The position numbers and the translations under genes are program-made. A DNA stretch of 32,161 nucleotides from Candidatus Scalindua arabica. GTDB lineage: Bacteria > Planctomycetota > Brocadiia > Brocadiales > Scalinduaceae. Under the pieces are notes generated by a model. That model was not told the DNA's origin and did not search any database. It was given only the letters and a program-made list of their open reading frames with translations. Shown one piece after another: positions 2,769-24,486 of this stretch; the first letter of the stretch is position 1; each line of letters starts with the position of its first letter. Location: assembly GCA_018263435.1 (NCBI GenBank), contig JAANXD010000042.1:12198-44358 (forward strand), given 5' to 3'.

Positions 2769-3917
2769 TTATTTTGATAAAAGCTCTTCATAAACTCTCT
2801 CAACTTTCTCAGTCATAGATTCCTGAGAAAATACATCTTGTGCTTTTTTCAGCGACGCGTCGGCCATTCTCTTCCTCAGTTCAATGTCATTTGCTAATTT
2901 TACAGTGGCCGCTGCCAGGTTTTCCGGTGTATCGTCAATGACGAATCCGGTAACGTTGTTATCAACTATTGTAGATAACATTCCTCTGTCAGCGGCAATT
3001 ACAGGTTTTCCCATTGCCATTACCTCTCTGACCGCACGGCATGAGCCATCCGTACCTGGCATCAGGAATATATTAAAATCCATACATGAGACGGTTTCTA
3101 CATAATCACCTGTTCGGTAACCGGTATGGACAACGATGTCTTCCAGTCCCATAGTCCTGGTGGGTTCTGTCAAAAGCTGCTTTTCCTTAGTCCCTCGGCC
3201 TATAACCAGTAACTTTAATCTTGGAACTTCTTTAGACGCGATCTTTATTGCCTGCAGAAGTATATGAAACCTTCGATGGGTCTGTATCCTGGCGATAATA
3301 CCGACTACTATATCGTCTTCCTTCATTCCAAATTTCTGCCTGTGGGTGAGAGGCCCATCTCCAGGGTTGAAACGGTGACAATCAATAGAAGCATTGATCA
3401 TAATTGTCTTATCTTCGCTTAGTCCAAAGTTTTTCATATCCGCCACCCTTGCCTCTTCTGAGACTTCAATTAATTTGTCAGTGAGCCTGGTTATACATTT
3501 CCTATTCCTCAGGGTTTTTTTCAACGCAACTCCGTCATGATTTGTGCGTACAACAGGTAATCTCATCCCGGTACGTCTGGCGGCCATTCCACCAACTAAA
3601 TGGTCCTGATTTCGATGAACGTGGACTATATCATATGCCTCTTCTTTCATAAAAACCGAAAGATTCTTGATGTCAGAGATGTACTTGAAAAGACTGAAAT
3701 GTTTGCTTAAATGAAACCTGGTGACCGGTACAAGGCCACGTTCGTATGTGCTCTTTTCAACTGATTCTGAATCCGGTGGGAAAGGGTAATCATCCATTGC
3801 CTTGCCACATGCAAGGGTGACGTCATGTCCACGTTTCTTTAATTCTACACAAAGGTTTAGCGCCGGTTCTGCCGGACCTGTCCATTTCCAATCACTGAAT
3901 AGGTGGAGTATTTTCAT
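2769..3917 (-). CDS. Glycosyltransferase family 4 (GT-B fold)
   Basis: A 382-residue cytoplasmic GT-B glycosyltransferase. The N-terminal half starts MKILHLFSDWKWTGPAE and contains VHVHRNQDHLVGG. The C-terminal nucleotide-sugar half has VGIIARIQTHRR (about residue 205) and the acceptor/donor loop EVMAMGKPVIAADRG (about residues 297-311), a GT4 hallmark. The sugar donor cannot be named. It is the fourth gene of the minus-strand operon, 104 bp after the GT2 gene; the spacer holds a small hairpin at 3944-3959. Probably adds one residue of a lipopolysaccharide or O-antigen chain. Confidence 0.88.
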   Translation of the reverse strand: MKILHLFSDWKWTGPAEPALNLCVELKKRGHDVTLACGKAMDDYPFPPDSESVEKSTYERGLVPVTRFHLSKHFSLFKYISDIKNLSVFMKEEAYDIVHVHRNQDHLVGGMAARRTGMRLPVVRTNHDGVALKKTLRNRKCITRLTDKLIEVSEEARVADMKNFGLSEDKTIMINASIDCHRFNPGDGPLTHRQKFGMKEDDIVVGIIARIQTHRRFHILLQAIKIASKEVPRLKLLVIGRGTKEKQLLTEPTRTMGLEDIVVHTGYRTGDYVETVSCMDFNIFLMPGTDGSCRAVREVMAMGKPVIAADRGMLSTIVDNNVTGFVIDDTPENLAAATVKLANDIELRKRMADASLKKAQDVFSQESMTEKVERVYEELLSK

Positions 3918-3943
3918 TTATTAATAATATCCGACGATCAACC

Positions 3944-3959
3944 AGTACTGAAAAGTACT
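3944..3959. other. Intercistronic hairpin AGTACT-GAAA-AGTACT
   Basis: Two copies of the self-complementary AGTACT are separated by GAAA, giving a 6-bp stem with a four-base loop between the GT2 and GT4 genes of the minus operon. There is no T-run after it on the minus strand, so it is not a clear terminator; it could be an RNA processing or stability element. Confidence 0.35.
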
Positions 3960-4021
3960 TTCGGACGGGAGCAGAAATCTTTCTGAACACCGAGAATTAA
4001 GCCAATAATAAAACTTGCAAG

Positions 4022-4810
4022 CTATCTTTCGTGTTTATTCGTGTCAATATGTGTTTTGTTTTTTATACGTAATTCCCACAATTTTGCATATTTCATAAAG
4101 ACGTAAAATGACGTTGTTGTTGCAGCTACTAAACCCGGTACTCCATCCAGAAATCCACGTTTGAAGAAGTATCCTTTGATAAATCTGAAAAGTGGCCTAA
4201 AAATGAGTTGAAAGGTGAGAAACCCTACACCTTCTTTGTCCATTTCTACAGCACTCATGTCTGTATAATTGTCGATAGTTTCAAGCTGGTGCGAAAGATT
4301 TCTGTATGTATAGTGAAGGCAATCATTCTTCAGGTATTTTGCCTTTCCGTTTAACTCCAGTGTCGCATGTGGTTCCTTTACCCACGTACCCTTATCTTTC
4401 TTATAGAGAAGGAGGTCGTATGCAGGATACCATTCTCCATGATTAATCCATTCTCCAAGATAATGCGTTCTGCGCGGGAAGTAAAAACCGTCCCAGCTAT
4501 TTGAATTATTATTTAAATGTGATTGAATTTCTTCATAAAGTTCGGGAGTAATTATTTCATCTGCATCTGTAAAGAGAATCCATTCATATTTGGCAAGACT
4601 GGCAATATAATTAGACTGATCCTGAAACCCCGGCCATTTTCTTTGATAAACTCTGTCTGTATATTTACGGCATATGTCAACCGTTTTATCAGTACTGTAA
4701 GAATCAACTACGATGACCTCATCAGCCCACTTAACATTCTCCATACAGTCCCGGATTAAATCTTCATTATTAAAAGTCATTACACATGCTGAAACCCTGG
4801 CTTTAGCCAT
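4022..4810 (-). CDS. Glycosyltransferase family 2, WaaE/KdtX-like
   Basis: A 262-residue GT-A glycosyltransferase. ACVMTFNNEDLIRDCM opens the fold, VDSYSTDKTVDI follows, and FTDADE (about residues 92-97) is the metal-binding DxD. The WPGFQDQSNYI stretch is typical of the WaaE-like lipopolysaccharide core glucosyltransferase group. The C-terminal part carries a hydrophobic amphipathic segment (about 205-240), so peripheral membrane binding is likely. The ATG at 4810 is chosen because GGGAG lies 7 bases upstream; an earlier ATG at 4837 abuts the preceding gene's stop but lacks such a site. The last codons (KTHIDTNKHER) are made of an intergenic repeat (see 4026-4057), so the native C-terminus has been replaced or extended. 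Confidence 0.85.
   Translation of the reverse strand: MAKARVSACVMTFNNEDLIRDCMENVKWADEVIVVDSYSTDKTVDICRKYTDRVYQRKWPGFQDQSNYIASLAKYEWILFTDADEIITPELYEEIQSHLNNNSNSWDGFYFPRRTHYLGEWINHGEWYPAYDLLLYKKDKGTWVKEPHATLELNGKAKYLKNDCLHYTYRNLSHQLETIDNYTDMSAVEMDKEGVGFLTFQLIFRPLFRFIKGYFFKRGFLDGVPGLVAATTTSFYVFMKYAKLWELRIKNKTHIDTNKHER
4026..4057 (-). repeat. 'Formula' repeat copy forming the 3' end of the GT2 gene
   Basis: On the minus strand this reads as ACACATATTGACACGAATAA followed by ACACGAAAG: an iterated CACxxATTxACACGAAT-like pattern. Related sequence occurs at 21951-21973 and 18380-18402. It encodes the final residues of the GT2 protein. Confidence 0.6.
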
Positions 4811-4837
4811 TATGATACTCCCTGGTGTTAATTGCAT

Positions 4838-5941
4838 CTATATATTCTGAAATTTAGTGATTAAACCGGCAACAGTTTCTATCTCTTCTGTTGTCAGTTC
4901 CGGATAAATGGGTAAAGATAATATTTCATCGGCATTCCTCTCACTTATTGGAAAATCTCCTGCTTTATGCCCAAGCTTTTTATAAGCTTCCTGCAGATGG
5001 ATTGGAATGGGATAATGTATTTGTGTGCCAACACCTCGTTCCTGTAGATAATCTTTTAAATCATTTCTTTTGTTTACCCTGATTACAAAAAGGTGATATA
5101 CGTGTTTTGCCCATTGCCTTTTGCATGGAAGTTGTACATTTGAATTATAGAGTAGTTGTCGGTATTGTGTGGCTATTTCCATTCGTCTGTTTGTCCATTC
5201 ATCTAAGTACCTTAATTTAACTCGAAGTACAGCGGCCTGAATCTCATCGAGTCGAGAATTAAACCCCTCAATTTTTGACGTGAACTTTTCCACTTCTCCA
5301 TAATTCCTGAGCATAATCAGTTTTTTATATAATTCTTCATTGTTAGTAACTATTATTCCGCCATCACCATATGCTCCCAGGTTTTTTGTTGGATAAAAAC
5401 TAAAGCAGCCCATATCTCCAATAGCTCCTGCATAGTTATCATTATATTTTGCACCATGAGCCTGGCATGCGTCTTCAATGATTCTCAAATTATGCGCATC
5501 TGCCAATTTTATTACTTGATCCATTTCCGTAGTGTGGCCATAAAGATGTACAGGCAGAATAGCTCTTGTTTTATCTGTAATCTTTTCCTCTACTTTTTTC
5601 AAATCCATAGTGTAGGTATCTGGCGTGATATCAACAAATACAGGTTTAGCCCCGGTAAATGATATGGCAGAGATAGTAGGAACTGCCGTATTTGGAACAG
5701 TAATTACTTCATCTCCGGCTCCGATATCATAAGATTTTAAAGAAAGATGCAAGGCTTCCGTACCTGAACCCACTCCTACGGCAAATCCGGCACCAATATA
5801 TTTTGCAAATTCCTCTTCAAACAATCTGACGTTTTCACCCAAGACAAAAATTCCTTTTTCGAAAACACATTTAAAGGCATTATCAAGCTCTGCCTTCAGC
5901 TGTTCATATTGTCTTTTAAGGTTGAAGACGGGAATTTTCAT
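4838..5941 (-). CDS. DegT/DnrJ/EryC1/StrS-family sugar aminotransferase
   Basis: A 367-residue PLP enzyme of fold type I that would transaminate a nucleotide-linked keto-sugar, with glutamate as the usual donor. PLP-binding features are SGTEALHLSL (about 59-68), EDACQAHGA (156-164, Asp157 holding the pyridine nitrogen) and SFYPTKNLGAYGDGG with the Schiff-base Lys186. The ATG at 5941 lies one base after the epimerase stop (TAACATG) and begins MKIPVFNLKRQ, the usual family N-terminus; a longer frame from 5980 would overlap the upstream gene by 38 bp. With the epimerase it should make an amino-deoxysugar nucleotide. WecE- or WlbC-like specificities are possible but cannot be separated here. Confidence 0.9.
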   Translation of the reverse strand: MKIPVFNLKRQYEQLKAELDNAFKCVFEKGIFVLGENVRLFEEEFAKYIGAGFAVGVGSGTEALHLSLKSYDIGAGDEVITVPNTAVPTISAISFTGAKPVFVDITPDTYTMDLKKVEEKITDKTRAILPVHLYGHTTEMDQVIKLADAHNLRIIEDACQAHGAKYNDNYAGAIGDMGCFSFYPTKNLGAYGDGGIIVTNNEELYKKLIMLRNYGEVEKFTSKIEGFNSRLDEIQAAVLRVKLRYLDEWTNRRMEIATQYRQLLYNSNVQLPCKRQWAKHVYHLFVIRVNKRNDLKDYLQERGVGTQIHYPIPIHLQEAYKKLGHKAGDFPISERNADEILSLPIYPELTTEEIETVAGLITKFQNI

Positions 5942-5942
5942 G

Positions 5943-6926
5943 TTACCAATAATGCTCTCTGTATTTCTCATAGTAATCAAATGACGATTGAAGTCCTTCT
6001 TCTAACGAAACCTTTGGTTTCCACTCAACAGCACTCTTAATCTTTTCAAAATTTGCAACGTAATCTCCAATTTCTATCTTTTTAAGTTCATCCTTGAATG
6101 GTATAAGTTCGTAGTTGCCCTTACCATAAACATCTATCATTGTTTCTACCAAATCTATCAGGTTTTTCGGAATGCCACCAAGGTTAAAGACTTCACCGTT
6201 GGTCTTCTCATTACAAGCTACCAGTAACAATGCTTCAATAACATCATCAACATAATTGATGTCTCTGATCTGTTTGCCGTCACCGTATAACTTTATTGTC
6301 TGACCCTCTATTAATTGCCTTATAAACCAGTTGATTATTCCCTGCTTGTGGTGTTTCATCTGGTGTCTGGGCCCATAAGTATTCGTTAATCTGAGAGAAA
6401 CAGCTCTTATACCATAAATATTATTGTACAGAATGTGATATGATTCTCCTGCAATATTATTTATCCCGTTAACATCTGTCGGGTGCATCAGGTGCTTTTC
6501 GTCTACGGGCAGGTGGTCTGCTTTTCCATATTGTCCTCTCGTGCCGGCGAAAATAATCTTGACATCTTTGTTGTTTTTGCGGCAAGACTCCAGGATTGAT
6601 AACTGGCTCATACAATTAATTTCCAAATCAGTAAACGGGTCATTCATGCTGTCAATGTGGCTTAATGTCCCTGCAAGATTGAAGATGATATCCTTGTCCT
6701 TTACAAGATAGTCCATACTATGCTTATCTCTGACATCGGCGATGTTTACCTTTACCCTGCCCTCAATACCATTAATATTAAAATTATTTCCTCCATATTC
6801 CGGTATCAGGGAGTCGATGAGATATATATCTGCTTCTAACTTCACAAGCTGGTGTGCCAGTGAGCTTCCAATGAAACCCAAGCCCCCGGTTATCAATATT
6901 TTTTTGTTTTTGAAATAATTTTCCAT
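5943..6926 (-). CDS. NAD-dependent nucleotide-sugar epimerase/dehydratase (extended SDR) with altered catalytic site
   Basis: A 327-residue extended SDR protein. The NAD-binding GGLGFIG sits at 14-20, followed by the acidic DSL after beta-2, NLAG at 83-86 and the C-terminal sugar domain with LRLTNTYGPR (178-187) and RDINYVDDV. Normally a Tyr-x-x-x-Lys pair lies in the helix before AGE; here the segment is VNGINNIAGE, so both Tyr and Lys positions (153 and 157) are Asn. It therefore may not do the classical 4-oxidation alone. As the first gene of the minus-strand operon it likely acts on the sugar passed to the aminotransferase at 4838-5941. No convincing Shine-Dalgarno sequence precedes the ATG. 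Confidence 0.85.
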   Translation of the reverse strand: MENYFKNKKILITGGLGFIGSSLAHQLVKLEADIYLIDSLIPEYGGNNFNINGIEGRVKVNIADVRDKHSMDYLVKDKDIIFNLAGTLSHIDSMNDPFTDLEINCMSQLSILESCRKNNKDVKIIFAGTRGQYGKADHLPVDEKHLMHPTDVNGINNIAGESYHILYNNIYGIRAVSLRLTNTYGPRHQMKHHKQGIINWFIRQLIEGQTIKLYGDGKQIRDINYVDDVIEALLLVACNEKTNGEVFNLGGIPKNLIDLVETMIDVYGKGNYELIPFKDELKKIEIGDYVANFEKIKSAVEWKPKVSLEEGLQSSFDYYEKYREHYW

Positions 6927-7200
6927 AATACACTAAGAACTGAGATCACTCCTCATAGCATAACTAACAAGCATTCATAAGGTGGATTAATAGATTACAG
7001 AACTAAACCAAAAACCGACCTCAGGTTAGCTCTTGGGGTACATAACCCCTAATATTAAATATTGTCAAGTAAAATTCCAATTCTTGAGTAGACAATAACT
7101 TTACTTAATATAAGTATTTCAAATATATAACTTGAATTATTTAATAATCTGAATCATAATAATAAACGGCAAAATTTTCAATCAATTTACTTAAAGATAG
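6927..7200. promoter_or_regulatory. Divergent intergenic region between two sugar operons
   Basis: 274 bp, strongly AT-rich, between divergently transcribed genes, so it must carry promoters for both directions. It contains an inverted repeat GGGGT-acata-ACCCC at 7035-7049, a possible operator or hairpin, and TATAAG at about 7119-7124 as a weak -10 candidate for the plus strand. No gene was seen in it. Confidence 0.4.
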
Positions 7201-8448
7201 ATGACGCTAAGCTCAGACACGATAAAGGAAGTTTCAGTTAAGAAAAGAATTTCTGTTGGTGATTTTCAGATCAGCACAGAAGAAAGAGCTGCCATTAATG
7301 AAGTGTTGGATGCTGGGAGGATTTCAGAATGGAAGAAAGTTAGTGAGTTTGAAAGACTATTTGCTGATTACATTAATACGAAACATTGCGTAGCTGTTCA
7401 CTCCGGCACATCTGCCTTGATAGTAGGGCTGTCAGCATTAATATATGACTCTCGATTTCCAAAAATTAAAAAAGGTAGTAAGGTAATAACAACACCATTG
7501 ACTTATGTTGCAACAATAAATGCTATTGTATTAACAGGCCTGGAGCCGGTTTTTATAGATGTTGATCCCTATAGTTTTTCAATATTACCTCAAAAGATAG
7601 AAGAACATCTGAGAAGCGTAAATGATCCAGAAAATTATTCTATTATATTACCAGTACATCTTATGGGTTATTCCTGTGATATGGATGAAATAAATAGAAT
7701 TGCCAGGAAATATGATTTGGTTGTCCTTGAAGATTCTGCTCAGGCTCATGGTTCGCTATATAAAAGGCAGAGAACTGGGTCATTATCCTTACTTTCTATT
7801 TTTTCCTTTTATATTGCACATAATATACAGGCAGGAGAGATGGGGGCAGTAATGACAGATGATGAAAAGCTGATAAACCTGATGAGAAAATTGAAGGCTA
7901 ATGGGAGAGTATGTGACTGTTCTGTTTGCACGAGACCAAATGGTTATTGCCCTTACTTTCCCCAGGATGATGATTTTGATCCGCGTTTCGTTCATGATGT
8001 TATAGGTTATAATTTTAAAGTAATGGAGTTTGAGGCTGCACTGGGAGTAAGCCAATTAAAAAAAGCAGATCTTATATTCGTTAAAAGACAAAATAATGTA
8101 CGTTATCTTAATGAACATTTAGATAAATATTCAGATGATTTGCAATTACCGGCATTCTCAGAAAACATAAGCTATCTGGCTTATCCAATTGTAATAAAGG
8201 AACATAGCAAATATTCCAGAAAGTATTTACGTGAAGAACTGGAGAGAAATGGTATTGAAAGCAGACCTCTCTTTGGATGTGTCCCCACTCAACAACCGGC
8301 ATATAATTATCTTAAGGGTGAATATGAGGGTAAAATGCCAAATGCAGAATATGCCGGTAAGAATGCCTTTTACATTGGTTGTCATCAGTATCTTCACAAA
8401 GATGACATCGAGTATGTAGTTTGCATATTCGACAAGATATTATCTTAA
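7201..8448 (+). CDS. DegT-fold PLP protein with His in place of the Schiff-base Lys; ColD/RfbH-like C-3 dehydratase
   Basis: A 415-residue DegT/DnrJ/EryC1/StrS protein. HSGTSALIVGL (67-77) and LEDSAQAHGS (176-185) are the cofactor sites, but the lysine position reads SFYIAHNIQAGEMG, with His207 instead of Lys. Family members with this exchange (ColD, and RfbH/DdhC 'E1') remove the C-3 hydroxyl of 4-keto-6-deoxysugars rather than transaminating. A cysteine group CDCSVCTRPNGYC lies at 238-250, the place where E1 carries most of its [2Fe-2S] ligands, but the fourth E1 cysteine in the EDxxxA segment is Ser here. It is first of the plus-strand operon and probably makes a 3-deoxysugar. Confidence 0.85.
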   Translation: MTLSSDTIKEVSVKKRISVGDFQISTEERAAINEVLDAGRISEWKKVSEFERLFADYINTKHCVAVHSGTSALIVGLSALIYDSRFPKIKKGSKVITTPLTYVATINAIVLTGLEPVFIDVDPYSFSILPQKIEEHLRSVNDPENYSIILPVHLMGYSCDMDEINRIARKYDLVVLEDSAQAHGSLYKRQRTGSLSLLSIFSFYIAHNIQAGEMGAVMTDDEKLINLMRKLKANGRVCDCSVCTRPNGYCPYFPQDDDFDPRFVHDVIGYNFKVMEFEAALGVSQLKKADLIFVKRQNNVRYLNEHLDKYSDDLQLPAFSENISYLAYPIVIKEHSKYSRKYLREELERNGIESRPLFGCVPTQQPAYNYLKGEYEGKMPNAEYAGKNAFYIGCHQYLHKDDIEYVVCIFDKILS

Positions 8449-8532
8449 CAAATACATACCTAACATCTTCTTTTACCGTTGAATCAATAGAAGATTTAAT
8501 TTATCCTAATTATCGTTTTACCATTTAATACT

Positions 8533-8628
8533 GTGTTAAAATCCAGCTTATCTATAATCTTACCTACCTACAGTGAAAGGGATAAGATTAAAATCCTCAT
8601 TCCAGAAATTGAGAAAACACTCGAGTAA
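8533..8628 (+). pseudogene. GT2 (dolichol-phosphate-mannose-synthase-like) N-terminal remnant
   Basis: From GTG 8533 the frame reads LKSSLSIILPTYSERDKIKI and LIPEIEKTLE before TAA at 8626-8628. SIILPTYSERDKI is the opening strand and loop of DPM1-type GT2 enzymes (consensus ...LPTYNERENI). A shifted frame at about 8638-8652 reads EIVII, the strand that should follow, directly before the ATG at 8653. So about 40 codons of a lost gene, with a stop and frameshift, fill most of this 204-bp gap. Not expected to make an active enzyme. Confidence 0.65.
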
Positions 8629-8652
8629 AAAATTTAAGAAATTGTAATTATC

Positions 8653-9597
8653 ATGTTAGATAGAAATACCATATATGCAATTACTATTATAGTCTCAGGC
8701 TTCCTGACGAGGCTGATAAACATAACAAAGCCAATACTTGAGGTTGCCATGTGGAGACAATGTGATACCGCGTCTATTGCCCGCAACTTTTATTACAACG
8801 GAATGAATATCTTCTATCCTCAGGTAATGCAAGGTGGTGCCACCGATGGGTATATAGGAGGGACGGAGTTTCAGATATATCCGTTTACTGTTGCAATATT
8901 ATACCAGATATTTGGTGTACATGAGTACCTGGGTAGATTAGTTTCTATATTCGCTTTCTGTGGAGGGGCATTCTTTTTGTACAAGTTGTCAAGGAAATAT
9001 GTAGGCGAAACAACAAGCCTGATCGGTTTGCTCTTTTATACATTCAATCCTTATATCTTCTTTTATTCAAGGTCTTTTCAGCCGGATTCCAGTATGTTGT
9101 TCTTTTCGATCGCCATGCTTTATTTTTTCTCAGAGTGGATAGACAAAGAAGGGTGGAGAAGGTTTGCATTAATGACATTATGTGCAACTCTCGCATTTCT
9201 TATAAAAATCCCAACAATTTGCTTAGGACTACCGCTGCTATATCTTTGTTTAATAAAATACAAACATAGTTTTGTAATGCAATGGCGATTATGGCTTTTT
9301 GCTTGCCTAAGTATTATACCGACTTTTCTGTGGTATAGACACTCACACTATCTGGTAAGCATAAACAATCTCACATGGAGTGGACTTAAACTAAGCAGCT
9401 ATACAATTTATTTAGATTTCTCTTTTTATTGGCGGGTTTTTTTCACTGAAATATTTGAGAGAGACCTCATATATGTTGGGGGTATATTTCTGGTATTAGG
9501 GATAATATTTACATTTAAGAAGAAGGAGTTTGGTTACATTCGGTATTGGTTACTTGCCATAATTATATTCTTCTTTTTAGGGGCAGAGAAAAGATAA
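8653..9597 (+). CDS. GT39/ArnT-like polytopic glycosyltransferase, short (possibly C-terminally truncated)
   Basis: A 314-residue integral membrane protein with about nine hydrophobic segments. WRQCDTASIARNFYYNG near residue 34 matches the first periplasmic loop of the PMT/ArnT family, which use polyprenyl-phosphate sugars to glycosylate lipid A or proteins. NPYIFFYSRSFQPDSSMLFF (about 136-155) is the next conserved block. Family members usually run to 450-550 residues with a C-terminal periplasmic part; this frame ends in a transmembrane helix followed by GAEKR, and the GT2 gene starts on the very next base. Truncation by fusion to the next gene is likely. The upstream DPM1-like remnant may once have supplied the lipid-linked sugar. 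Confidence 0.75.
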   Translation: MLDRNTIYAITIIVSGFLTRLINITKPILEVAMWRQCDTASIARNFYYNGMNIFYPQVMQGGATDGYIGGTEFQIYPFTVAILYQIFGVHEYLGRLVSIFAFCGGAFFLYKLSRKYVGETTSLIGLLFYTFNPYIFFYSRSFQPDSSMLFFSIAMLYFFSEWIDKEGWRRFALMTLCATLAFLIKIPTICLGLPLLYLCLIKYKHSFVMQWRLWLFACLSIIPTFLWYRHSHYLVSINNLTWSGLKLSSYTIYLDFSFYWRVFFTEIFERDLIYVGGIFLVLGIIFTFKKKEFGYIRYWLLAIIIFFFLGAEKR

Positions 9598-10458
9598 ATG
9601 GCAACAGTAAGCGTAATAATACATACTTTCAATAACGAAAAGTTTATTGGAGAGACTATAGAGTCTGTCCTTAAGCAAACATATGACGACTATGAAATCA
9701 TAGTCATTGACGACGGTTCCGTGGATGGTACACGTGATGCGCTTCAACCATATATGCAAAGAATAAGATATCATTACAAGGAGAATGGTGGGATTGCAAG
9801 TGCCAAGAATGCAGGCATAAGTTTGTCTGAAGCTGAGTTTATTGCGTTTCTTGACCATGATGATTTGTGGGATCCCGATAAACTCAAGCTACAGATGGAA
9901 CATTTCAACAGTAATCCACAGATAGGATTAGTTTATGCTAAATATACCAGTTTCAGGAATGATAAAGAGCTGAGAACAAAACCTGATAAAGGATACAGCG
10001 GTTGGATATTTAAAGAACTTCTTTCCAAAAGCTTTATCCAGACTTCAACCGTGATGGTAAAAAGAGAATGTCTCAATGAAGTAGGACCGTATGATGAATC
10101 ATTTTCTCTTGGAGACGAATATGATATGTTCTTACGTATAGCTCGAAAATTCCAATGTGGTTTTATTGATAAAGGGCTTACTCGGTACAGGGTCCATGAT
10201 AGAAATGCATCAAAAGACGATCTTCTTTTTGATAAGGAGAATCTAAGAGTTTTCAAAAAAGTTTACAATGGATATACAGACCTTGATGAAAAAGAGAAAA
10301 AGATATTAAGGAAAAGAATTGCCATGTACAGTATCAGAGTTGCCAAAGGCCTTTACAACCAGGGTCAACTGGAAGAATCAAAGGAATATCAAGAAGAAGC
10401 ACGTGAGTATCTACCGTTCTACAAGAGAATTACCAGCAATCTGACCTTCAAGACCTGA
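9598..10458 (+). CDS. Glycosyltransferase family 2
   Basis: A 286-residue GT-A glycosyltransferase. The fold starts VSVIIHTFNNEKFIGETI, then IIVIDDGSVDGT (about 34-45), and FLDHDDLW (about 83-90) carries the DxD metal site. SLGDEYDMFLRIAR (about 175-188) is the usual acceptor-side ED motif. The C-terminal 60 residues are charged and helical. The ATG directly follows the previous stop codon (TAAATG). Probably adds one sugar of the repeat unit; donor unknown. Confidence 0.88.
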   Translation: MATVSVIIHTFNNEKFIGETIESVLKQTYDDYEIIVIDDGSVDGTRDALQPYMQRIRYHYKENGGIASAKNAGISLSEAEFIAFLDHDDLWDPDKLKLQMEHFNSNPQIGLVYAKYTSFRNDKELRTKPDKGYSGWIFKELLSKSFIQTSTVMVKRECLNEVGPYDESFSLGDEYDMFLRIARKFQCGFIDKGLTRYRVHDRNASKDDLLFDKENLRVFKKVYNGYTDLDEKEKKILRKRIAMYSIRVAKGLYNQGQLEESKEYQEEAREYLPFYKRITSNLTFKT

Positions 10459-10489
10459 CTGCATCGCTAATTCTTCAAATAAGTAACAT

Positions 10490-11674
10490 ATGAAAATAGC
10501 CTTAAACATATATAAATATTTGCCGGTAAAAGGAGGAGGGGAAGGTTATCTCTCCAATTTTGCAGATCAGCTGGCAGAGAGAGGGCACGAGGTACACATA
10601 TTTGCCAGTGAGTGGGAGAACAACAATAGCCGACTGCACTACCATTCTATTCCGGTTATAAGATATCCTAAATTCCTTAAAGACGTCTCATTTGCCATAA
10701 ACAGTTGGCGAAAGATGTCAGGCAGCGGTTTTGATATAGTACATGTTGTCGGCAGGGCACTTGGGATGAATGTATTTAATCCACACTGCGGAGTGGAAAA
10801 GGCATGGCTGAAACAGGATATCCTGTCAGTAAGTTGTCCTTTTTACAGATTTCTGAAACAGATAACGAGATTTTTCAGCCTCAGACAGAATTTTATTTTG
10901 TGGTTGGACAGAAAACAGTATACGGATAAAGGTGTATCCAGGATTATTGCCATATCTGACATGATAAAGAATGATATTATTGAGCGCTACAATATAGACC
11001 ATCAAAAGATAAGAGTAGTCTATAATGGTGTAGACCTTCAGAAATTCACTCCTGACAACAGAAACAAATACAGAAAAGCTGTGAGAGAAAAACTCTCTTT
11101 AGGTGAAGAGTTTGTAATCTTATACATAAGTAATAACTTCAGGCTAAAGGGCCTTCTCACACTGATAAAGGCACTGGGAGAACTTAAGAAATTACGTAAT
11201 GATTTTAAAGCCTTAATAATAGGAAGAGGCAGAGATTCTTCATACCATAAAATAGCGAAAAAACTTAATTGCCTGGAGAATCTGATATTTTTAGGACATG
11301 TAAATGAGATTGAGAAATATTATGCAGCATCGGACATTTATGTGCATCCAACATTTTACGATTCGTGCTCTTTGGTGGTTACTGAATCTCTGGCTAGTGG
11401 ACTGCCGGTGATTACTACAAGGTACGATGGTGCAAGCGGCGTAATAGATAATGGCATAGAGGGCTTTGTGATGGGGAACCCAATGGATTACGAAGCTTTA
11501 GCGGAGAAGATAAGCCTTTTTTTTGATGATGAATTCAGGGAAAAGGTGTCCATTGCCGCACGTGTAAAAGCCGAAAAATATCCTGCTGAGAAAAACTGTG
11601 AAGAGATTCTAGAAATATATAACGAAGTTGTGGCAGAATCTAATGAAGATATTATTCTTAGTTCAAGGTCTTGA
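10490..11674 (+). CDS. Glycosyltransferase family 4, WaaG-like
   Basis: A 394-residue GT-B enzyme resembling the lipopolysaccharide core glucosyltransferase WaaG. It has GGGEGYLSNFADQLAERGHE (about 16-35), then LGMNVFNPHCGVEKAWLKQ, a WaaG-like block that follows the family's HGG/HCG turn. The donor domain has VVYNGVDLQKF, LYISNNFRLKG, and the E-x7-E region TESLASGLPVITT (about 301-313). It overlaps the next gene by 32 bp, so translation is coupled. Likely role: adding a hexose to the lipopolysaccharide core or O-chain at the inner membrane. Confidence 0.88.
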   Translation: MKIALNIYKYLPVKGGGEGYLSNFADQLAERGHEVHIFASEWENNNSRLHYHSIPVIRYPKFLKDVSFAINSWRKMSGSGFDIVHVVGRALGMNVFNPHCGVEKAWLKQDILSVSCPFYRFLKQITRFFSLRQNFILWLDRKQYTDKGVSRIIAISDMIKNDIIERYNIDHQKIRVVYNGVDLQKFTPDNRNKYRKAVREKLSLGEEFVILYISNNFRLKGLLTLIKALGELKKLRNDFKALIIGRGRDSSYHKIAKKLNCLENLIFLGHVNEIEKYYAASDIYVHPTFYDSCSLVVTESLASGLPVITTRYDGASGVIDNGIEGFVMGNPMDYEALAEKISLFFDDEFREKVSIAARVKAEKYPAEKNCEEILEIYNEVVAESNEDIILSSRS

Positions 11675-12635
11675 TGTGGCGGCGAGCAGATACAGGGTAC
11701 TTCAATATCTTCCGTATCTAAAGGAGCATGGAGTGGAGGCAACTGTCCTGCCTTTTCAGAAAGGGTTCCTTAAGAAACTAAAGCTGTTCAAGAGTGCAAA
11801 CGAATATGATATCCTGTTTATACAGCGAAAGAGATTTCCCGTTCTCTGGCTTAAATATATAAGAAAGAATGCAAGAAGAATCGTTTATGATTTTGATGAC
11901 TCCATAATGTACCGTAATTCAAAAGCCTCTAACCCGGAATCAAATACCCGGATTAAAATGTTTAAAAATATGGTTAATGCCTCTGACTATGTCATAGCAG
12001 GAAATGAATATTTACAAAAAAATACTACACCCTTAACACATAATGTTACAATCATACCATCTCCCATAGACATGTCCTTTTATCCTCCAAAGAAATATTC
12101 AGAGAATAACGATAATATAACTCTGGGTTGGATTGGCGCTACCGGTAGTATTCATTATTTAGAAAAAATGAAGCCTGTGTTTGAGGTTCTCGGTGAAAAA
12201 TACAAAGACTTAAGACTGAAGATTATATGTGATACATTTTTTGATTGTGAAAATATTACTGTAGAAAAGAAACTCTGGAATGAGAAAGAGGAAGTTGCGG
12301 ACATTCAAAGCCTTGACATCGGCCTGATGCCGCTCATGGACGATCCATGGTCGCATGGGAAGTGTGGACTGAAGATACTGCAGTGCCTTGCAACGGGAGT
12401 TCCGGTAGTTTGCAGCCCGGCAGGAATCAACAGGGAAATAGTCGAAGATGGTGTACACGGCTTCTGGGCAAACACACAGGAAGAGTGGATAGAAAAACTG
12501 GAAATCCTGATAAATGACCATGACCTTCGGAAGAGAATGGGAATGGAAGGACGAAAGAGGGTTATTGAGCATTACTCACTTGAGGCAAACGCACCCAGAA
12601 TACTAAAGATATTTCATCAATTATCATCCCACTAG
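11643..12635 (+). CDS. GT-B glycosyltransferase (GT4-like)
   Basis: A 330-residue GT-B protein. The N-terminal half begins MKILFLVQGLDVAASRYRV and has YDILFIQRKRFPVLWL and RRIVYDFDDSIM. The C-terminal half has LGWIGATGSIHYL and the donor loop GLKILQCLATGVPVVCSPAG, then GINREIVEDG. The ATG at 11643 gives the standard N-terminus and overlaps the preceding gene by 32 bp; an upstream in-frame start at 11628 would add five residues. This is the last gene of the plus-strand sugar operon. Donor and acceptor unknown. Confidence 0.85.
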   Translation: MKILFLVQGLDVAASRYRVLQYLPYLKEHGVEATVLPFQKGFLKKLKLFKSANEYDILFIQRKRFPVLWLKYIRKNARRIVYDFDDSIMYRNSKASNPESNTRIKMFKNMVNASDYVIAGNEYLQKNTTPLTHNVTIIPSPIDMSFYPPKKYSENNDNITLGWIGATGSIHYLEKMKPVFEVLGEKYKDLRLKIICDTFFDCENITVEKKLWNEKEEVADIQSLDIGLMPLMDDPWSHGKCGLKILQCLATGVPVVCSPAGINREIVEDGVHGFWANTQEEWIEKLEILINDHDLRKRMGMEGRKRVIEHYSLEANAPRILKIFHQLSSH

Positions 12636-17857: not shown

Positions 17858-18215
17858 TTTGATATATCCTTTTAAATTAAATCTACATTTCCACTCTTGT
17901 GTAAGCAACAAGATATCAATGCCTATTGAATTACCTTGGTTACATATGAATCTGTTTATAAAAGGCGCAATCTTTATACCAAATTCTACCATAATAACCC
18001 AAATACAACACAAAAAGTTTCCTGAAATCCAACAAAAAATCCCATGCCATACAAGTCCTTGTACTACTATAATTTAAGTCTTTGCCAAATCATTTTATAC
18101 TTCAAATTTAACGCCGACTCAATATAATCTAAATAATCTAATACATTTTTTTCGTTTTTATTTAAGCAAAACAAAGGTGAAAACGAAAATATTTTGAGAA
18201 ATGTTTTCGCTCAAG

Positions 18216-18337
18216 TGGTAAATAAATAACAAACAAATTCCAATGAAGAAATCCAAAATATCAAGCAAACTGATTCTGGTCATTTGGGCATTGTATTTTG
18301 TGGTTTATTTGTAATTTGCTATTTGAGATTTGTAGTT
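18216..18337. repeat. AT-rich imperfect inverted-repeat element
   Basis: The left arm reads GTAAATAAATAACAAACAAA and continues with TTCCAAT. The right arm contains TTTATTTGTAATTTGCTATT followed by TGAGATTTG, which approximates the reverse complement. Between them lies ...TTCTGGTCATTTGGGCATTG... The composition of short ATTTG/CAAAT words is typical of dispersed intergenic repeats in environmental genomes (my recollection, not checked). Confidence 0.45.
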
Positions 18338-18339
18338 TT

Positions 18340-18405
18340 TGTCCTTTGCGCTCCTTGCGTTAAGATTTGTTATTTTTAGTGTTAATCCGTGAAATTTGTG
18401 TCTAA
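18340..18405. repeat. 'Formula' intergenic repeats
   Basis: The run includes CCTTTGCGCTCCTTGCGTTA and, 20 bases further on, GTTAATCCGTGAAATTTGTG. The second resembles TTAATCTGTGTTAATCCGCG at 21950 and the antisense of the 4026-4057 copy; the first resembles the reverse complement of the CGCAGAGGCGCAGAG sequence at 21784. Confidence 0.55.
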
Positions 18406-18434
18406 ATCCCTCAATTCTTAAATTCCTAAATTAT

Positions 18435-19544
18435 TTAAAGCAATTTCTGTTTCAAATAAAGCTCATATATTCGATAGAACGTCTCCATAGATACGATATC
18501 GATCCATTCATCTGTAGAATGTAATTCGTCAACAATAGGCCTGGAAACAATTACGGGGATGTTAAGGCGCCCAACAAAGCGGGCATCACTTCCACCATCT
18601 TCCTTTTCCTGACTGGTAGGTTTTCCGGTTACTTCTTCAGTGACTGAAATGTAGAGTGGGTCAGGTGAGAGGAGTGTCGGTTCTGCACTGATTAGTGTAT
18701 GCGTATTGATTTCTTCACCTAACAAACTGCGAACATGGTTTAACATTTCCTTTACGGTGTATGGTGCTGGGAATCGTATGTCAAGAGTAGCTTCAGCTTC
18801 CGATGGTACACGGTTAACGGTTTGATTTGCTGTCTTAACGATTGTCAGAGCGCAGGTAGGATGCCAATGGTATTCATCCGTCTTTAAAGAATCAAAGTTT
18901 TCCCGTAGGCGGACAGTTGCGTCTATAAGACGCTCCAGTGGATTGTTTCCCAGCCATGGACGTGCAGCATGTGAAGAGTGTCCATTACACTGGATATTTA
19001 GATGAAGTATCCCTTTTTCTTCCACAGTTATCTCATTTAAAGAGCCTCCGTCAGGAATCATAGCAACATCGCACCTGATCCCCACTTCATCAAATAGAAA
19101 ACGCATACCTGAGTTACCGCCACGTTCTTCGTCAGATGTGATAGCCAGTCCAAGTGGGAGGTCATCATATTGCATATGTAAATTCCTGAAGATCTCCAGA
19201 AGAATTGCCAGAGGGCCTTTCATATCTGCTGACCCCGGACCAACTATTCTGCCATCAGCTATTTGTGAACGGTAGCTATGGGCATCCGGATGTGTAATGA
19301 CATCAATATGGCCGCAAAGGAGGATTTTAGGGTGCTTTACATCTTTAGGAAGGGCAACTAATGATGGAATATCACTATGGTAATATTTGTTTACTACTAT
19401 GTTATCAAGTGACTCCACGTGGTTGGTAATAAACTCAAGACCCCGTTCGATATCGTCCGGACGGGACGCATCGCTGGGTATCAGTATTAAGTCCCTTGTC
19501 AGTGCTACGAGCCTTTTCTGTAAATCTGTCGAAGATTGCGTCAT
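18435..19544 (-). CDS. M20-family metallopeptidase/deacylase (ArgE/DapE/CPG2-like)
   Basis: A 369-residue M20 dizinc hydrolase cleaving an amide or peptide bond. Metal ligands and catalytic residues are visible: GHIDV (His79, with Asp81), GSADMKG (Asp107), TSDEERGG (Glu139/Glu140), PDGG (Asp165) and ELHSTDEWI (His342). The lid domain spans about 178-285 (NGHSSHAARPWLGNNP). AGGTG lies 6 bases before the ATG. It is 15 bp downstream of the ATP-grasp gene and surely cotranscribed. ArgE, DapE or a dipeptidase are all possible, but no arginine or lysine pathway gene is near, so a role tied to the ligase product (trimming or recycling a peptide) is inferred. Confidence 0.85.
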   Translation of the reverse strand: MTQSSTDLQKRLVALTRDLILIPSDASRPDDIERGLEFITNHVESLDNIVVNKYYHSDIPSLVALPKDVKHPKILLCGHIDVITHPDAHSYRSQIADGRIVGPGSADMKGPLAILLEIFRNLHMQYDDLPLGLAITSDEERGGNSGMRFLFDEVGIRCDVAMIPDGGSLNEITVEEKGILHLNIQCNGHSSHAARPWLGNNPLERLIDATVRLRENFDSLKTDEYHWHPTCALTIVKTANQTVNRVPSEAEATLDIRFPAPYTVKEMLNHVRSLLGEEINTHTLISAEPTLLSPDPLYISVTEEVTGKPTSQEKEDGGSDARFVGRLNIPVIVSRPIVDELHSTDEWIDIVSMETFYRIYELYLKQKLL

Positions 19545-19559
19545 TTTTTCACCTGATAT

Positions 19560-20924
19560 TTAATCTCTGTCATAATGCCATTTTAATGGAAGTATTGATT
19601 CGATTTGTTCCAGCATGTTCAGGCAATCATCCATTACTTTCCCAAGACATAGAAACTGTCCTTTTTGTACACTGCCATCCTCGTTGAGGTTGAAGTTTAT
19701 GGGTATAACACCTTCCTGCATGTCAGGATGGTAAAGGTAGCCTGCCTGGTCGAGCATCTTCAGCAGGCTTGTATCCCTCAGTGGCTTGGCAAACCGTACG
19801 TTTCTCATTAACCAGGCATCATGTGGAAGGAAATGCCTCGCAATAACAGATGGATAGGTAGCGCCGGTAATTCGTGCATTTATTTCACACACTCTGACTT
19901 CTGTATTACCATGATGTTCAACAATAAGAAAGTCAACACTTGCCGTACCTCTGTATCCCTGATCATGAAGCCATGAGCCGGAAGTAGAAGCTTGGCGAAA
20001 CAATTCTTCGTATACCGGATCTTCCTTGCAGAAATAAGATGGAGGGGAGAGGTTGCCCTCATGGACGCTGTCCTCATTTAGAATTTGTTCAGTAATATCA
20101 TAGAGAGATACTGTATTGTCATCTAGAAACATTTGAATACTGGGTGATCCTACATGGCGTACATTTGTTACTGTTTCATCAAGCCATCCCTGTACCATAC
20201 AGGGACCTTCAAAGAAAAAGTGTTCTGGGATTGAGTTTACATTGGTGGCGGTCGTAGGAAAACTGGTCATGCCTATACCAGAAGCTCCGATTTGGGCTTT
20301 CACCACTGCCTTTTTGTATCCCTGGCTGTGTAGCGTAGAAAAACAAGCGTGAACTTCGTCAGGTGATGCTGCCGGTATAGTATCGAATACAGGAAATCCC
20401 TGCTCAGAAAGATGATTATGAAGCAGGAATTTATTGTTACCTCTCCTACTACCTTTCAGACTGCTTATGGTTGGTTTATTCAGGGCCTTTGCTATATTCA
20501 TGAGTACGTTATCACTGACAAACCCATCTATCCAGGCGGCATCATGTTGGTGGATTGTGGTTACTGTTGGATTAATTTCGTCATGGAGTAATTTGTTCAC
20601 CTGAGCAATAAGACTATCGTAAACCTTATGCGATAAAATTACAATGTTTGGCAGGCTCAAGCCAAGGTCGTCCTGGAAATAACGTATCAGGGTTTGATCA
20701 GGAGGCTTTTCCAGTACAAGCAGATTATTGTCTCCCTTGAATATGAGATTAATAATCGGGATGAGCCTTCCTCCATAGGTTTCCACGCCCATTACATGTT
20801 GCCTGAGTCTTTCCAGCTCATCATGGTTATCATAAAAAATAGATAGCATGTTAGCGAAATAGATAACGTCTCTATCCCAGAATGTTGGCAGCTGTCCAGG
20901 CCTGGTCATAACTTCAGCAGTCAT
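19560..20924 (-). CDS. ATP-grasp ligase, PGM1-like
   Basis: A 454-residue ATP-grasp enzyme that would join a carboxylate, activated as acyl phosphate, to an amine. ATP-binding lysines fall in GNNKFLLHNHL (Lys165) and KAVVKAQIGASGIGM (Lys209, with the flexible glycine loop). The metal/ATP end is CEINARITGATYPSV (Glu347, Asn349, Arg351), and the N-A-R-x-T-G-x-T-x-P form resembles the PGM1 peptide ligase of pheganomycin synthesis. The first 140 residues are a non-ATP-grasp domain with HQHDAAWIDGF. It is first of a two-gene operon with an M20 hydrolase. ATG 20924 has no clear Shine-Dalgarno sequence; ATG at 20909 is possible. Substrates unknown. Confidence 0.8.
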   Translation of the reverse strand: MTAEVMTRPGQLPTFWDRDVIYFANMLSIFYDNHDELERLRQHVMGVETYGGRLIPIINLIFKGDNNLLVLEKPPDQTLIRYFQDDLGLSLPNIVILSHKVYDSLIAQVNKLLHDEINPTVTTIHQHDAAWIDGFVSDNVLMNIAKALNKPTISSLKGSRRGNNKFLLHNHLSEQGFPVFDTIPAASPDEVHACFSTLHSQGYKKAVVKAQIGASGIGMTSFPTTATNVNSIPEHFFFEGPCMVQGWLDETVTNVRHVGSPSIQMFLDDNTVSLYDITEQILNEDSVHEGNLSPPSYFCKEDPVYEELFRQASTSGSWLHDQGYRGTASVDFLIVEHHGNTEVRVCEINARITGATYPSVIARHFLPHDAWLMRNVRFAKPLRDTSLLKMLDQAGYLYHPDMQEGVIPINFNLNEDGSVQKGQFLCLGKVMDDCLNMLEQIESILPLKWHYDRD

Positions 20925-21241
20925 AGTCTTTTTGTAATTTAGTTAGAAATAATATATCTGATTATTTTGTTTGATAACGTACAAATTAACTATTTCATTA
21001 TAAATTATAAGGATAGGGGGAATCAATGAGAAAGTCAGGAACAAGCCTGGCTTCGCTCCGCTTCAATGAGAAAGGAATAATGGTTTAGTGGCAGAATTTT
21101 CTAGCGGGGAGATTAATGGTATTATTCAAAACAGTTTGAAAATAACTTGATATTGTTGTATGATGGGTTTTAACAGCAACAGATTAGCGTCGGCAAATTA
21201 ATGTTAATTTTATGTCTCAATAATTGTTATTTAATATAAAT
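20925..21241. other. Divergent intergenic region, about 317 bp
   Basis: AT-rich region between the ATP-grasp operon and the orphan gene at 21242. It contains a 12-bp direct repeat TCAATGAGAAAG at 21023-21034 and 21063-21074, bracketing a GC-richer 28-bp insert with GCCTGGCTTCGCTCCGCTT. A possible 20-codon frame at 21026-21088 looks like chance. No promoter could be fixed. Confidence 0.35.
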
Positions 21242-21769
21242 ATGAATACATCTTGCGAGAAATTACCTCTGGTCGATCTTAACGCGCAAAAGGCTGAAAG
21301 TCACAGAAGTAGGGCAGGAAAAGTTCTCACAGAGGAGTCTATTGAACAGGACCAGAAAGACGCTGAAGGGATAATGAGTTTAACCGGCCTGGACCAGCAT
21401 GTGAGTTTAGATAATAAGATCGAAGCCAGAGAAAAGTACATGATTGAAACAAGGCCCAATGAATCAAAATCTCCTACTTCCAAAACAACAGGTATGGGCA
21501 TGAAGGTGAATATGCGCAAACCGCACTATACATTTCTTTTTGCGTTTGATAACAAAATGGTCTTTCAAGCTGCCTGCTGTTTACCTTTAAAGGTTATTGC
21601 TGCCAGTCTGGATGGTGATATTGTATTCGGGAAGGCCTTGTACGACAGTCACTCAGGAAACGAAGGTGGGAAATTAGTCTATGAGTTTCAGGGAGAAGGT
21701 TCTGAATTAATTATAGATGTAAGACGTGGTGAAAGTACAAAGGCGCAACGTCTGACTTTTAAGATTTAA
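21242..21769 (+). CDS. Hypothetical protein, 175 aa
   Basis: Not recognised. The predicted cytoplasmic protein has no signal peptide or transmembrane helix. Residues 1-85 are polar and charged, probably disordered or helical (many Glu, Lys, Ser). The C-terminal part from about HYTFLFAFDNKM to the end is alternating hydrophobic/polar with GKLVYEFQGEGSELIIDVRR, suggesting a small beta domain. The ATG at 21242 is chosen over TTG 21224 by codon preference only; neither has a strong Shine-Dalgarno sequence. Formula-repeat sequence follows within 15 bp of the stop. Confidence 0.6.
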   Translation: MNTSCEKLPLVDLNAQKAESHRSRAGKVLTEESIEQDQKDAEGIMSLTGLDQHVSLDNKIEAREKYMIETRPNESKSPTSKTTGMGMKVNMRKPHYTFLFAFDNKMVFQAACCLPLKVIAASLDGDIVFGKALYDSHSGNEGGKLVYEFQGEGSELIIDVRRGESTKAQRLTFKI

Positions 21770-21949: not shown

Positions 21950-23278
21950 TTAATCTGTGTTAATCCGCGTCCCATTATCTTTTACAAAGTATAAAAGCAC
22001 AATTCCAGTAATAAAGAAGCCAACCAGTGACAATATAGCAAGACGGGATGTCCCTGTAATCTGGCGAATAATGCCAAATACAAACGGTCCCCATATAGCC
22101 GAGAATTTTTCAAAAACAGAATAAAAGCCAAAAAACTCAGCCGATTCCTTCACGGGAACCATTGAACCATATAAAGACCTACTTATGGCTTGGGAACCGC
22201 CAAGAACCAATCCTACTGCTATCCCCAAAATCCAGAAATCAAGTGCACTGGTCATAAGATATGCATAGCACAATATGCCCAACCAGAGAAACAGAACAAA
22301 AATCAAAATTTTTTTAGATCCGAAGGTTTTGGCAATACGGCTAAATAACAGTGCGCCACCTATCCCTATAAATTGTACCAGTAAAAGTGTACCCATGAGG
22401 GTATGATTTTTAAGCCCCAGTTCATCCTTTCCGTAAATGGCGGCCATTCTGATAACGGTTTGTATGCCGTCATTATAGAACATAAAGGCTAAGAGGAAGA
22501 TAGTAAGGTTCCGGTATTTCTTAACATTTAAAATGGTGTGCCATATTCGTGATATGCCTGATCTTATATATGTCCATGAATTGTTCTTACCTGGATATTG
22601 CTGAGGGGAGGTTTCGTTGTTCCCGGGTTCATGCAGCCAGACAAGTGTGATTATCGAAAAGCCTGCCCACCAGGCTCCTGAGAACAACAAGCTTATTCTT
22701 ACTGCCATTGTTTTCTCAATGCCGAACTTATTGTGTATAAGAATTAAGATTATGCAGATTAGGAACTGCAGGCCTCCCCCAAGGTATCCATAGGCATAGC
22801 CTCTGCCTGAAACTTGATCTATCTCATTCCTTGAAGCAATGTGAGGTAGAAAAGAGTCGTAAAAGATATTTGCACTGATAAAGCAGGTATTTGCAATAAA
22901 GAAGAAAACCATCGTCATCCACACATCACCGCTACGGCTGAAAAACAGAAGTGTGGTAAATAAACTTCCCCCAAAGCAAAAGGCCATCAAAAACCTCTTT
23001 CTTGATTCTGTAATATCGGCGATTGCACCAAGGATAGGGGCCGTCAAGAACACAAAGAGAGCTGTAGTTCCGGAGAGAAATCCCCATAGTGTGGTCGCAT
23101 TGGTTGGTATTTCGATACCACCGAATCTGAATGTCCACCCGCTCTGAGGGACAACAACTGTTGCAAAGTATATGGGCAGGAGGGCGGCTATAATGGTTGT
23201 TGCAAATGCAGAATTAGCCCAATCGTACATACACCATGCAAAGATACTTTTGTCTTTCTGGTTCTTCATGGAAGCCAT
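21950..23278 (-). CDS. MFS transporter, UMF1/Atg22-like family
   Basis: A 442-residue major facilitator protein with about 12 hydrophobic helices. WCMYDWANSAFATTI (about 15-29) is the signature of the UMF1 family related to yeast Atg22 vacuolar amino-acid exporters. GAIADITESRKRFL (about 84-97) is the cytoplasmic loop 2-3 motif A, and a long cytoplasmic loop follows helix 6. LVLGGSQAISRSLYGSMVP lies in helix 10-11. The substrate is unknown; amino acids or peptides are plausible. The final GTRINTD is encoded by formula-repeat sequence at 21951-21973, so the natural C-terminus may have been replaced. It converges on the orphan gene at 21242-21769. Confidence 0.85.
   Translation of the reverse strand: MASMKNQKDKSIFAWCMYDWANSAFATTIIAALLPIYFATVVVPQSGWTFRFGGIEIPTNATTLWGFLSGTTALFVFLTAPILGAIADITESRKRFLMAFCFGGSLFTTLLFFSRSGDVWMTMVFFFIANTCFISANIFYDSFLPHIASRNEIDQVSGRGYAYGYLGGGLQFLICIILILIHNKFGIEKTMAVRISLLFSGAWWAGFSIITLVWLHEPGNNETSPQQYPGKNNSWTYIRSGISRIWHTILNVKKYRNLTIFLLAFMFYNDGIQTVIRMAAIYGKDELGLKNHTLMGTLLLVQFIGIGGALLFSRIAKTFGSKKILIFVLFLWLGILCYAYLMTSALDFWILGIAVGLVLGGSQAISRSLYGSMVPVKESAEFFGFYSVFEKFSAIWGPFVFGIIRQITGTSRLAILSLVGFFITGIVLLYFVKDNGTRINTD
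21951..21973 (-). repeat. 'Formula' repeat copy forming the 3' end of the MFS gene
   Basis: Plus-strand TAATCTGTGTTAATCCGCGT and the following CCC; on the minus strand it codes for GTRINTD and the stop. It has the same CGxATTAACACxGATT pattern as copies at 4026-4057 and 18380-18402. Confidence 0.6.
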
Positions 23279-24204: not shown

Positions 24205-24486
24205 TTAATAGACAATATTATAGAGATCATTAAGTTTTGTATCCAGAAAACCCTTATTCCCACCGGATGGATATACTAGAGCTTTCTTACTGATACAGAT
24301 TACAAGAATCTGACTTCTGCTGATGGCCTTCTTAACCTGAGCCTCCCATTTTTTTGGGTTGATGTCGACCCTGTCAAAAGTCACATTCAACTCTCTTTCC
24401 TTCATACCCTCGTACAACCTTTTGGTCGTATCCGTATCCTCTGCGGCACAGCTCAGAAAAATAGTGTAATCTCTTGATTTACCCAT
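24205..24486 (-). CDS. Short TIR-domain protein, probably truncated
   Basis: A 93-residue TIR-fold protein. YTIFLSCAAEDTDTTKRLYE (7-26) is strand A and the box 1 region, FDRVDINPKKWEAQVKKAI (about 37-55) the BB loop and helix B, and ILVICISKKALVYP strand D. Bacterial TIR domains are about 130 residues and hydrolyse NAD in anti-phage defence. Here the frame ends soon after GFLDTKLNDL, where NADase family members usually have a catalytic Glu (GF-x-x-K-E-type); Lys appears instead. No effector partner (SIR2, Argonaute, SAVED, STING) is adjacent. Interpreted as a decayed or shortened TIR protein. Confidence 0.6.
   Translation of the reverse strand: MGKSRDYTIFLSCAAEDTDTTKRLYEGMKERELNVTFDRVDINPKKWEAQVKKAISRSQILVICISKKALVYPSGGNKGFLDTKLNDLYNIVY

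Follow-up and report, generated by a model that had tools for sequence, protein, structure and literature searches.

Two adjacent genes of Candidatus Scalindua arabica, encoding a predicted ATP-grasp ligase and an M20-family metallopeptidase, are supported as a real functional unit by their distribution and order across genomes. Scalindua are the main marine anammox bacteria. The pair was interpreted as a make-and-break module of two genes that handles a single small metabolite of amide or dipeptide-like nature, a reading to which a probability of about one half was given. The ATP-grasp enzyme would spend ATP to turn the carboxylate of a first small molecule, probably an amino acid, into an acyl phosphate and would then join this to the amine of a second. 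The M20 enzyme, acting as a two-metal dipeptidase, would hydrolyse the same amide when the compound is reclaimed. We infer that the bond made by the ligase is the one cut by M20, that amino acids from primary metabolism serve as substrates, and that hydrolysis by M20 is for turnover and not for biosynthesis, although the two enzymes could instead act on different molecules.

Both genes are located on the minus strand of the window (the whole stretch of DNA analysed, 32,161 nucleotides). The features referred to below, in window positions, are as follows:

18435..19544, minus strand: M20-family metallopeptidase, second gene of the pair, 369 aa, with a metal site of the dipeptidase/aminopeptidase type (Asp165)
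19545..19559, minus strand: intergenic gap of 15 bp between the ATP-grasp and M20 genes
19560..20924, minus strand: predicted ATP-grasp amide/peptide ligase, first gene of the pair, 454 aa, with a PreAtp-grasp-like N-terminal region
21224-21769: orphan of 181 aa, between the pair and the UMF1 gene, with only an insignificant Pfam match
21950-23278: UMF1/Atg22-type MFS transporter (PF11700, 260 bits)

The 15-bp spacing given in the first-pass annotation is borne out by these coordinates of the two open reading frames (ORFs). Most homologues had a gap of between a few and about 130 bp, and the two genes overlapped in several Verrucomicrobiota and in the locus L068. No terminator-like site was found at positions 18100-21300 around the pair, and promoter and terminator scans gave a result no better than chance. 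An RNA element upstream of the pair was rejected, the window having no Rfam match.

Whole-phylum surveys covered an evenly drawn sample each of Planctomycetota and Verrucomicrobiota, and close-relative patterns were used for a single scan of an index of species genomes. The nearest homologues of the window ATP-grasp protein were found in Scalindua assemblies (73-87% identical). A near-full-length ATP-grasp gene was detected in 12 of the 17 genomes of the window's family, Scalinduaceae, and was absent from all 42 other Brocadiales genomes. Each of these 12 ATP-grasp copies was immediately followed on its 3' side by the M20 gene, which was a remnant in one case. Two of the 12 ATP-grasp genomes (G013 and G015) had one in-frame TGA per gene in otherwise intact ATP-grasp genes (L017:8001-9362 and L025:8977-10335). 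The TGA in L017 falls at the position of a Trp codon, L025 has a short out-of-frame stretch, and the TGA in these genes could represent sequencing error or recent decay.

The ATP-grasp family profile matched 6 of 392 Planctomycetota genomes (five of the window's family and one, G114, of another family) and 10 of 388 Verrucomicrobiota genomes. At the 11 distant loci outside Scalinduaceae, the ATP-grasp protein was 41-50% identical to the window protein, and the M20 gene again followed directly 3' (11/11), so that gene order was constant. The reverse search recovered the M20 subfamily in 10/388 Verrucomicrobiota and 8/392 Planctomycetota genomes. Both genes were found in nine Verrucomicrobiota genomes, and in the tenth genome with an ATP-grasp gene (G474) the M20 gene is cut by the contig end. 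Co-occurrence gave hypergeometric p values of 2e-16 (Verrucomicrobiota) and 6e-12 (Planctomycetota), which overstate the significance because genomes were treated as independent. The adjacency of the two genes is far beyond chance. Protein distances of the ATP-grasp and M20 families were correlated (r=0.97 overall; r=0.88 outside Scalindua, Mantel p=0.0002) and the trees agreed; therefore, the pair has travelled together. The first-pass annotation had proposed a survey of genomes for co-occurrence, with an absence of co-occurrence to count against its proposal; the survey found the two genes together and adjoining in two phyla. A mobile origin of the pair was rejected, since searches of plasmids and viral contigs with the ATP-grasp protein returned no match. 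A search of the open-access literature for reports of this pair in Planctomycetes or Verrucomicrobia returned nothing relevant, which is not proof that the pair is undescribed.

Each of the two genes has been lost separately from the other. In S. rubra (L015), the ligase gene is intact (80% identical) and has a dN/dS of 0.08-0.15, reflecting purifying selection, and the M20 gene has lost most of its coding region, with the rest frameshifted. An element of approximately 107 bp with 14-bp inverted ends (GGTCAGGTCTTGCA) takes the place of the lost M20 sequence of S. rubra (L015:1979-2085) and was absent from the window. In G001 (L061), only the first 67 codons of the ligase are left, with an internal stop, and are fused to the start of the M20 gene, which reads through to the contig end; this deletion probably occurred via recombination between short similar sequences at its two ends. 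In G004 (L059), the M20 gene is intact and has no ligase upstream. The M20 dN/dS was 0.11-0.12 for G001 or G004 compared to the window and 0.31 for G001 compared to G004, and therefore M20 is still constrained where the ligase is gone. An M20 gene without the ligase was observed in G001 and G004, in G481, and as a second copy in G603; given that it survives in this way, the M20 enzyme can have another substrate. The loss-case assemblies are metagenome-derived and single cases need caution, but taken together the losses argue against a strict dependence of either enzyme on the other. The M20 genes without ATP-grasp in G481 and in the second copy of G603 (L095:2935-6042 and L096:5297-8331) are oriented divergently beside two consecutive transglutaminase-like genes (Transglut_core), possibly a second partnership of the M20 subfamily.

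Because the ligase and M20 were lost separately, a make-and-break module is a better fit than a pathway in which trimming must follow synthesis. The pair had earlier been proposed to make and process, or recycle, a small dipeptide or acylated amino acid; of these two options for the predicted product, separate loss favours recycling or turnover. The retention of M20 in genomes without the ligase would also suit peptide scavenging, in which M20 splits imported dipeptides and the ligase re-uses a residue in a storage compound, a cofactor tail, or a protein tag. A weak match of the ATP-grasp protein to RimK-like ligases points the same way, as do the Dpp, Opp, and OPT peptide transport genes of S. 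profunda, which are moderately expressed and for which peptide use was proposed (PMC3655542). However, scavenging leaves the tracking of the M20 subfamily with the ATP-grasp family in two phyla unexplained, and outside the Scalindua genus no peptide transporter was linked to the pair. It was considered a credible but unlikely explanation.

The ATP-grasp protein contains the complete ATP/Mg-binding set of its superfamily (Lys, Lys, Arg, Asp, Glu, and Asn; K165, K209, R325, D331, E347, and N349). Positions K165, K209, D276, R325, D331, E347, N349, and R351 were identical in all 22 aligned members, confirming the intact ATP-grasp residues recorded at first reading. The C-terminal motif is CEINARITGATYP (E347, N349, R351, G354, P358). 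Pfam ATP-grasp_3 fell just short of its cut-off on the window protein (22.9 vs 23.2 bits, E=1e-4) and matched 16/21 members at E<0.1. PreAtp-grasp (PF18604) reached 18.5 bits vs a cut-off of 27.5 (E=0.003), and PGM1_C (PF18105) matched a single member of the 21 (E=0.057). With both of these domains below cut-off, the protein falls short of assignment as a PGM1-type peptide ligase by domain score. The best solved relatives, both weak, were an "ATP-grasp peptide ligase" (8ynd; E=0.075 with the profile and 4e-4 with the single sequence) and PGM1 (3wvq; E=0.04 with the family profile). The AlphaFold model was too poor (pLDDT 44.7) for a fold comparison with 3wvq or for a reading of the substrate pocket. 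The likeness to PGM1 that had been drawn from the NARxTGxTxP end is weakly supported: PreAtp-grasp matches 17/21 members at E<0.1, but the scores checked fall below cut-off and the solved relatives are marginal. On these profile matches, the protein is likely to be distantly akin to PGM1-type peptide ligases, with membership below threshold.

PGM1 is the ligase of a peptide natural product, and this relationship, together with the fixed order and coupling of both genes, would agree with biosynthesis with trimming, in which a peptide is extended or capped by the ligase and then loses an end residue to M20 to yield the final product. However, the neighbourhoods compared contain no recurring gene for a precursor, a tailoring enzyme, or an exporter, and an obligatory two-step pathway forbids both the S. 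rubra ligase without M20 and the M20 without ligase of other genomes. Trimming was therefore judged to be rather improbable.

Neighbouring genes were compared at the 11 distant loci using ORFs of at least 90 aa, and no third gene recurred in more than two of them. A RiPP or graspetide cluster was rejected, as no recurring precursor or tailoring gene was found beside the ligase in this comparison; the earlier remark that no precursor peptide gene was seen also holds at these loci. Within Scalindua, TrxB and geranylgeranyl-reductase-like neighbours are widely kept, and UMF1 and the orphan less so, with the 181-aa orphan kept between the pair and UMF1 in several genomes. Three loci (L017, L024, and L025) have only the pair in common with the window locus. 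UMF1 and the orphan were rejected as parts of the module given that they are near the pair within the Scalindua genus only and are absent in these three loci and in all Verrucomicrobiota loci. Export of the product by UMF1, as had been suggested, was not borne out, since neither the other genera nor Verrucomicrobiota have the transporter next to the pair.

An anti-phage defence role of the pair was rejected with no PADLOC match. Elsewhere in the window, a 93-aa TIR-domain ORF (PF13676), probably a truncated gene, was located at 24205-24486. A glycosyltransferase/sugar-aminotransferase-like cluster was located at 2769-12635, with a carbamoyltransferase (Carbam_trans_N and C domains) upstream at 296-1870.

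The M20 protein exceeds the Pfam gathering scores for both Peptidase_M20 (80 vs 24.6 bits) and M20_dimer (58.6 vs 21), and the His, Asp, Glu, Glu, Asp/Glu, His metal and catalytic set of M20 metallopeptidases is complete. H79, D81, D107, E139, E140, and D165 were identical in 24/24 aligned members, and H342 in every member reaching this position (one sequence ends early at a contig end). The description of a fully equipped M20 enzyme is thus upheld. The closest solved relative was 2rb7 (E=2e-61 with the family profile), a structural genomics entry from Desulfovibrio desulfuricans G20 that is approximately 27% identical to the window M20 and has Asp at the same metal position. The AlphaFold model was moderate (pLDDT 66.6), and Foldseek returned 2rb7 as the first match and only expected M20 relatives, with LysK among the weaker ones. 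No substrate is assigned to the window M20 by 2rb7, which is itself without known function.

Known systems were compared to the pair. Carnosine synthase CARNS1 (ATP-grasp) and the M20 carnosinases CN1/CN2/PepD make and break the same dipeptide, with Asp in the metal site (PMC6271292). The window pair resembles this system in combining an ATP-grasp ligase with the dipeptidase type of M20 and in the Asp of the M20 metal site, but the ligase is of another ATP-grasp family, the window M20 is much smaller, and the carnosine genes are unpaired in animals. PGM1 (pheganomycin, 3wvq), KtmD (ketomemicin), and 8ynd share with the window ligase a length of approximately 450 aa, a PreAtp-grasp-like N-terminal region, and a similar C-terminal half with the E-x-N-x-R-x-T-G motif. 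These similarities stay below threshold, however, with profile E values of 0.04 to 0.08, and the window-type ligase usually occurs with M20; in contrast to PGM1 and KtmD, no aldolase, amidinotransferase, dehydrogenase, or precursor peptide is found beside it. The NAGGN osmolyte trio is composed of an asparagine synthase-like gene, an Ngg GNAT/ATP-grasp fusion, and an M42 peptidase. It is comparable in that a peptide-osmolyte synthase is kept beside a metallopeptidase, whereas the window pair has two genes instead of three, M20 instead of M42, and neither a GNAT domain nor an asparagine synthase.

In LysX/ArgX and LysK, an ATP-grasp ligase and an M20 hydrolase likewise act on one amide bond. 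This known couple, with LysK among the structural relatives of the M20 enzyme, would allow for a carrier- or protein-bound substrate (a LysW-like amino-group carrier or a C-terminal tag) to which the ligase adds a residue that M20 removes. However, the window proteins scored only 50.3 vs 363 bits for LysK (NF003367) and 21.2 vs 143.4 for the RimK family (TIGR00768). No LysW carrier is present near the pair, and no small carrier gene recurs near it among the ORFs of at least 90 aa compared. A LysW/RimK-type system was rejected with both proteins far below the LysX/RimK and LysK cut-offs, and a bound substrate of any such kind seems very unlikely. The simplest account is a make-and-break pair that would work like carnosine synthase and carnosinase or like LysX and LysK, while falling outside the sequence definitions of either.

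In the account of Lindner et al. given in PMC6271292, Asp is found in proven dipeptidase and aminopeptidase members of M20 and Glu in aminoacylases and carboxypeptidases. By this rule, which is a correlation only, the window enzyme is of the dipeptidase/aminopeptidase type, with Asp165 present in 24/24 members and DapE having Glu in the same alignment column; the residue is suggestive of a dipeptide-like substrate. The rule discriminates unreliably, because a second, TIGR01910-family M20 of the host genome (G000:C13:10827-11459; L088:1109-2278) also has Asp and not Glu at the discriminating metal position. This second gene, at 269 bits, is above the ArgE/DapE subfamily cut-off. The window M20 reached none of the listed curated NCBIfam cut-offs, including those of the ArgE/DapE models TIGR01910 (108 vs 217.6 bits), TIGR01246 (104 vs 362), and TIGR01892 (89 vs 298). 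Ordinary amino-acid biosynthesis, with M20 as ArgE or DapE and the ATP-grasp gene as a chance neighbour, would suit an enzyme within the broad ArgE/DapE superfamily, but can be set aside given the missed cut-offs, the separate gene that passes, the Asp in place of Glu, and a pairing that is not incidental. ArgE/DapE orthology, raised in the first-pass annotation as an outcome that would undo its proposal, was accordingly ruled out.

Returning to the make-and-break module, a doubtful extension is that the product is a new dipeptide-type compound that marine anammox bacteria use as a compatible solute or to store nitrogen, and that some Verrucomicrobiota share through transfer or old inheritance. 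In a published analysis, S. rubra was inferred to rely on compatible solutes, although no synthesis genes for betaine, ectoine, glycerate-derived solutes, mannitol, or sorbitol were found (PMC5486813). The broken M20 and intact ligase of this one genome would then be expected, because a solute would be kept and not degraded.

No curated model with a named function is reached by either protein, yet distant bacteria have kept the pair together as a minimal module. Because it has just two enzymes, with probably ordinary metabolites as substrates, the product could be found by a single in vitro ligation screen. In Scalindua, it could bear on salt adaptation or nitrogen handling, for which no clear synthesis genes were reported in the published S. 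rubra genome analysis.
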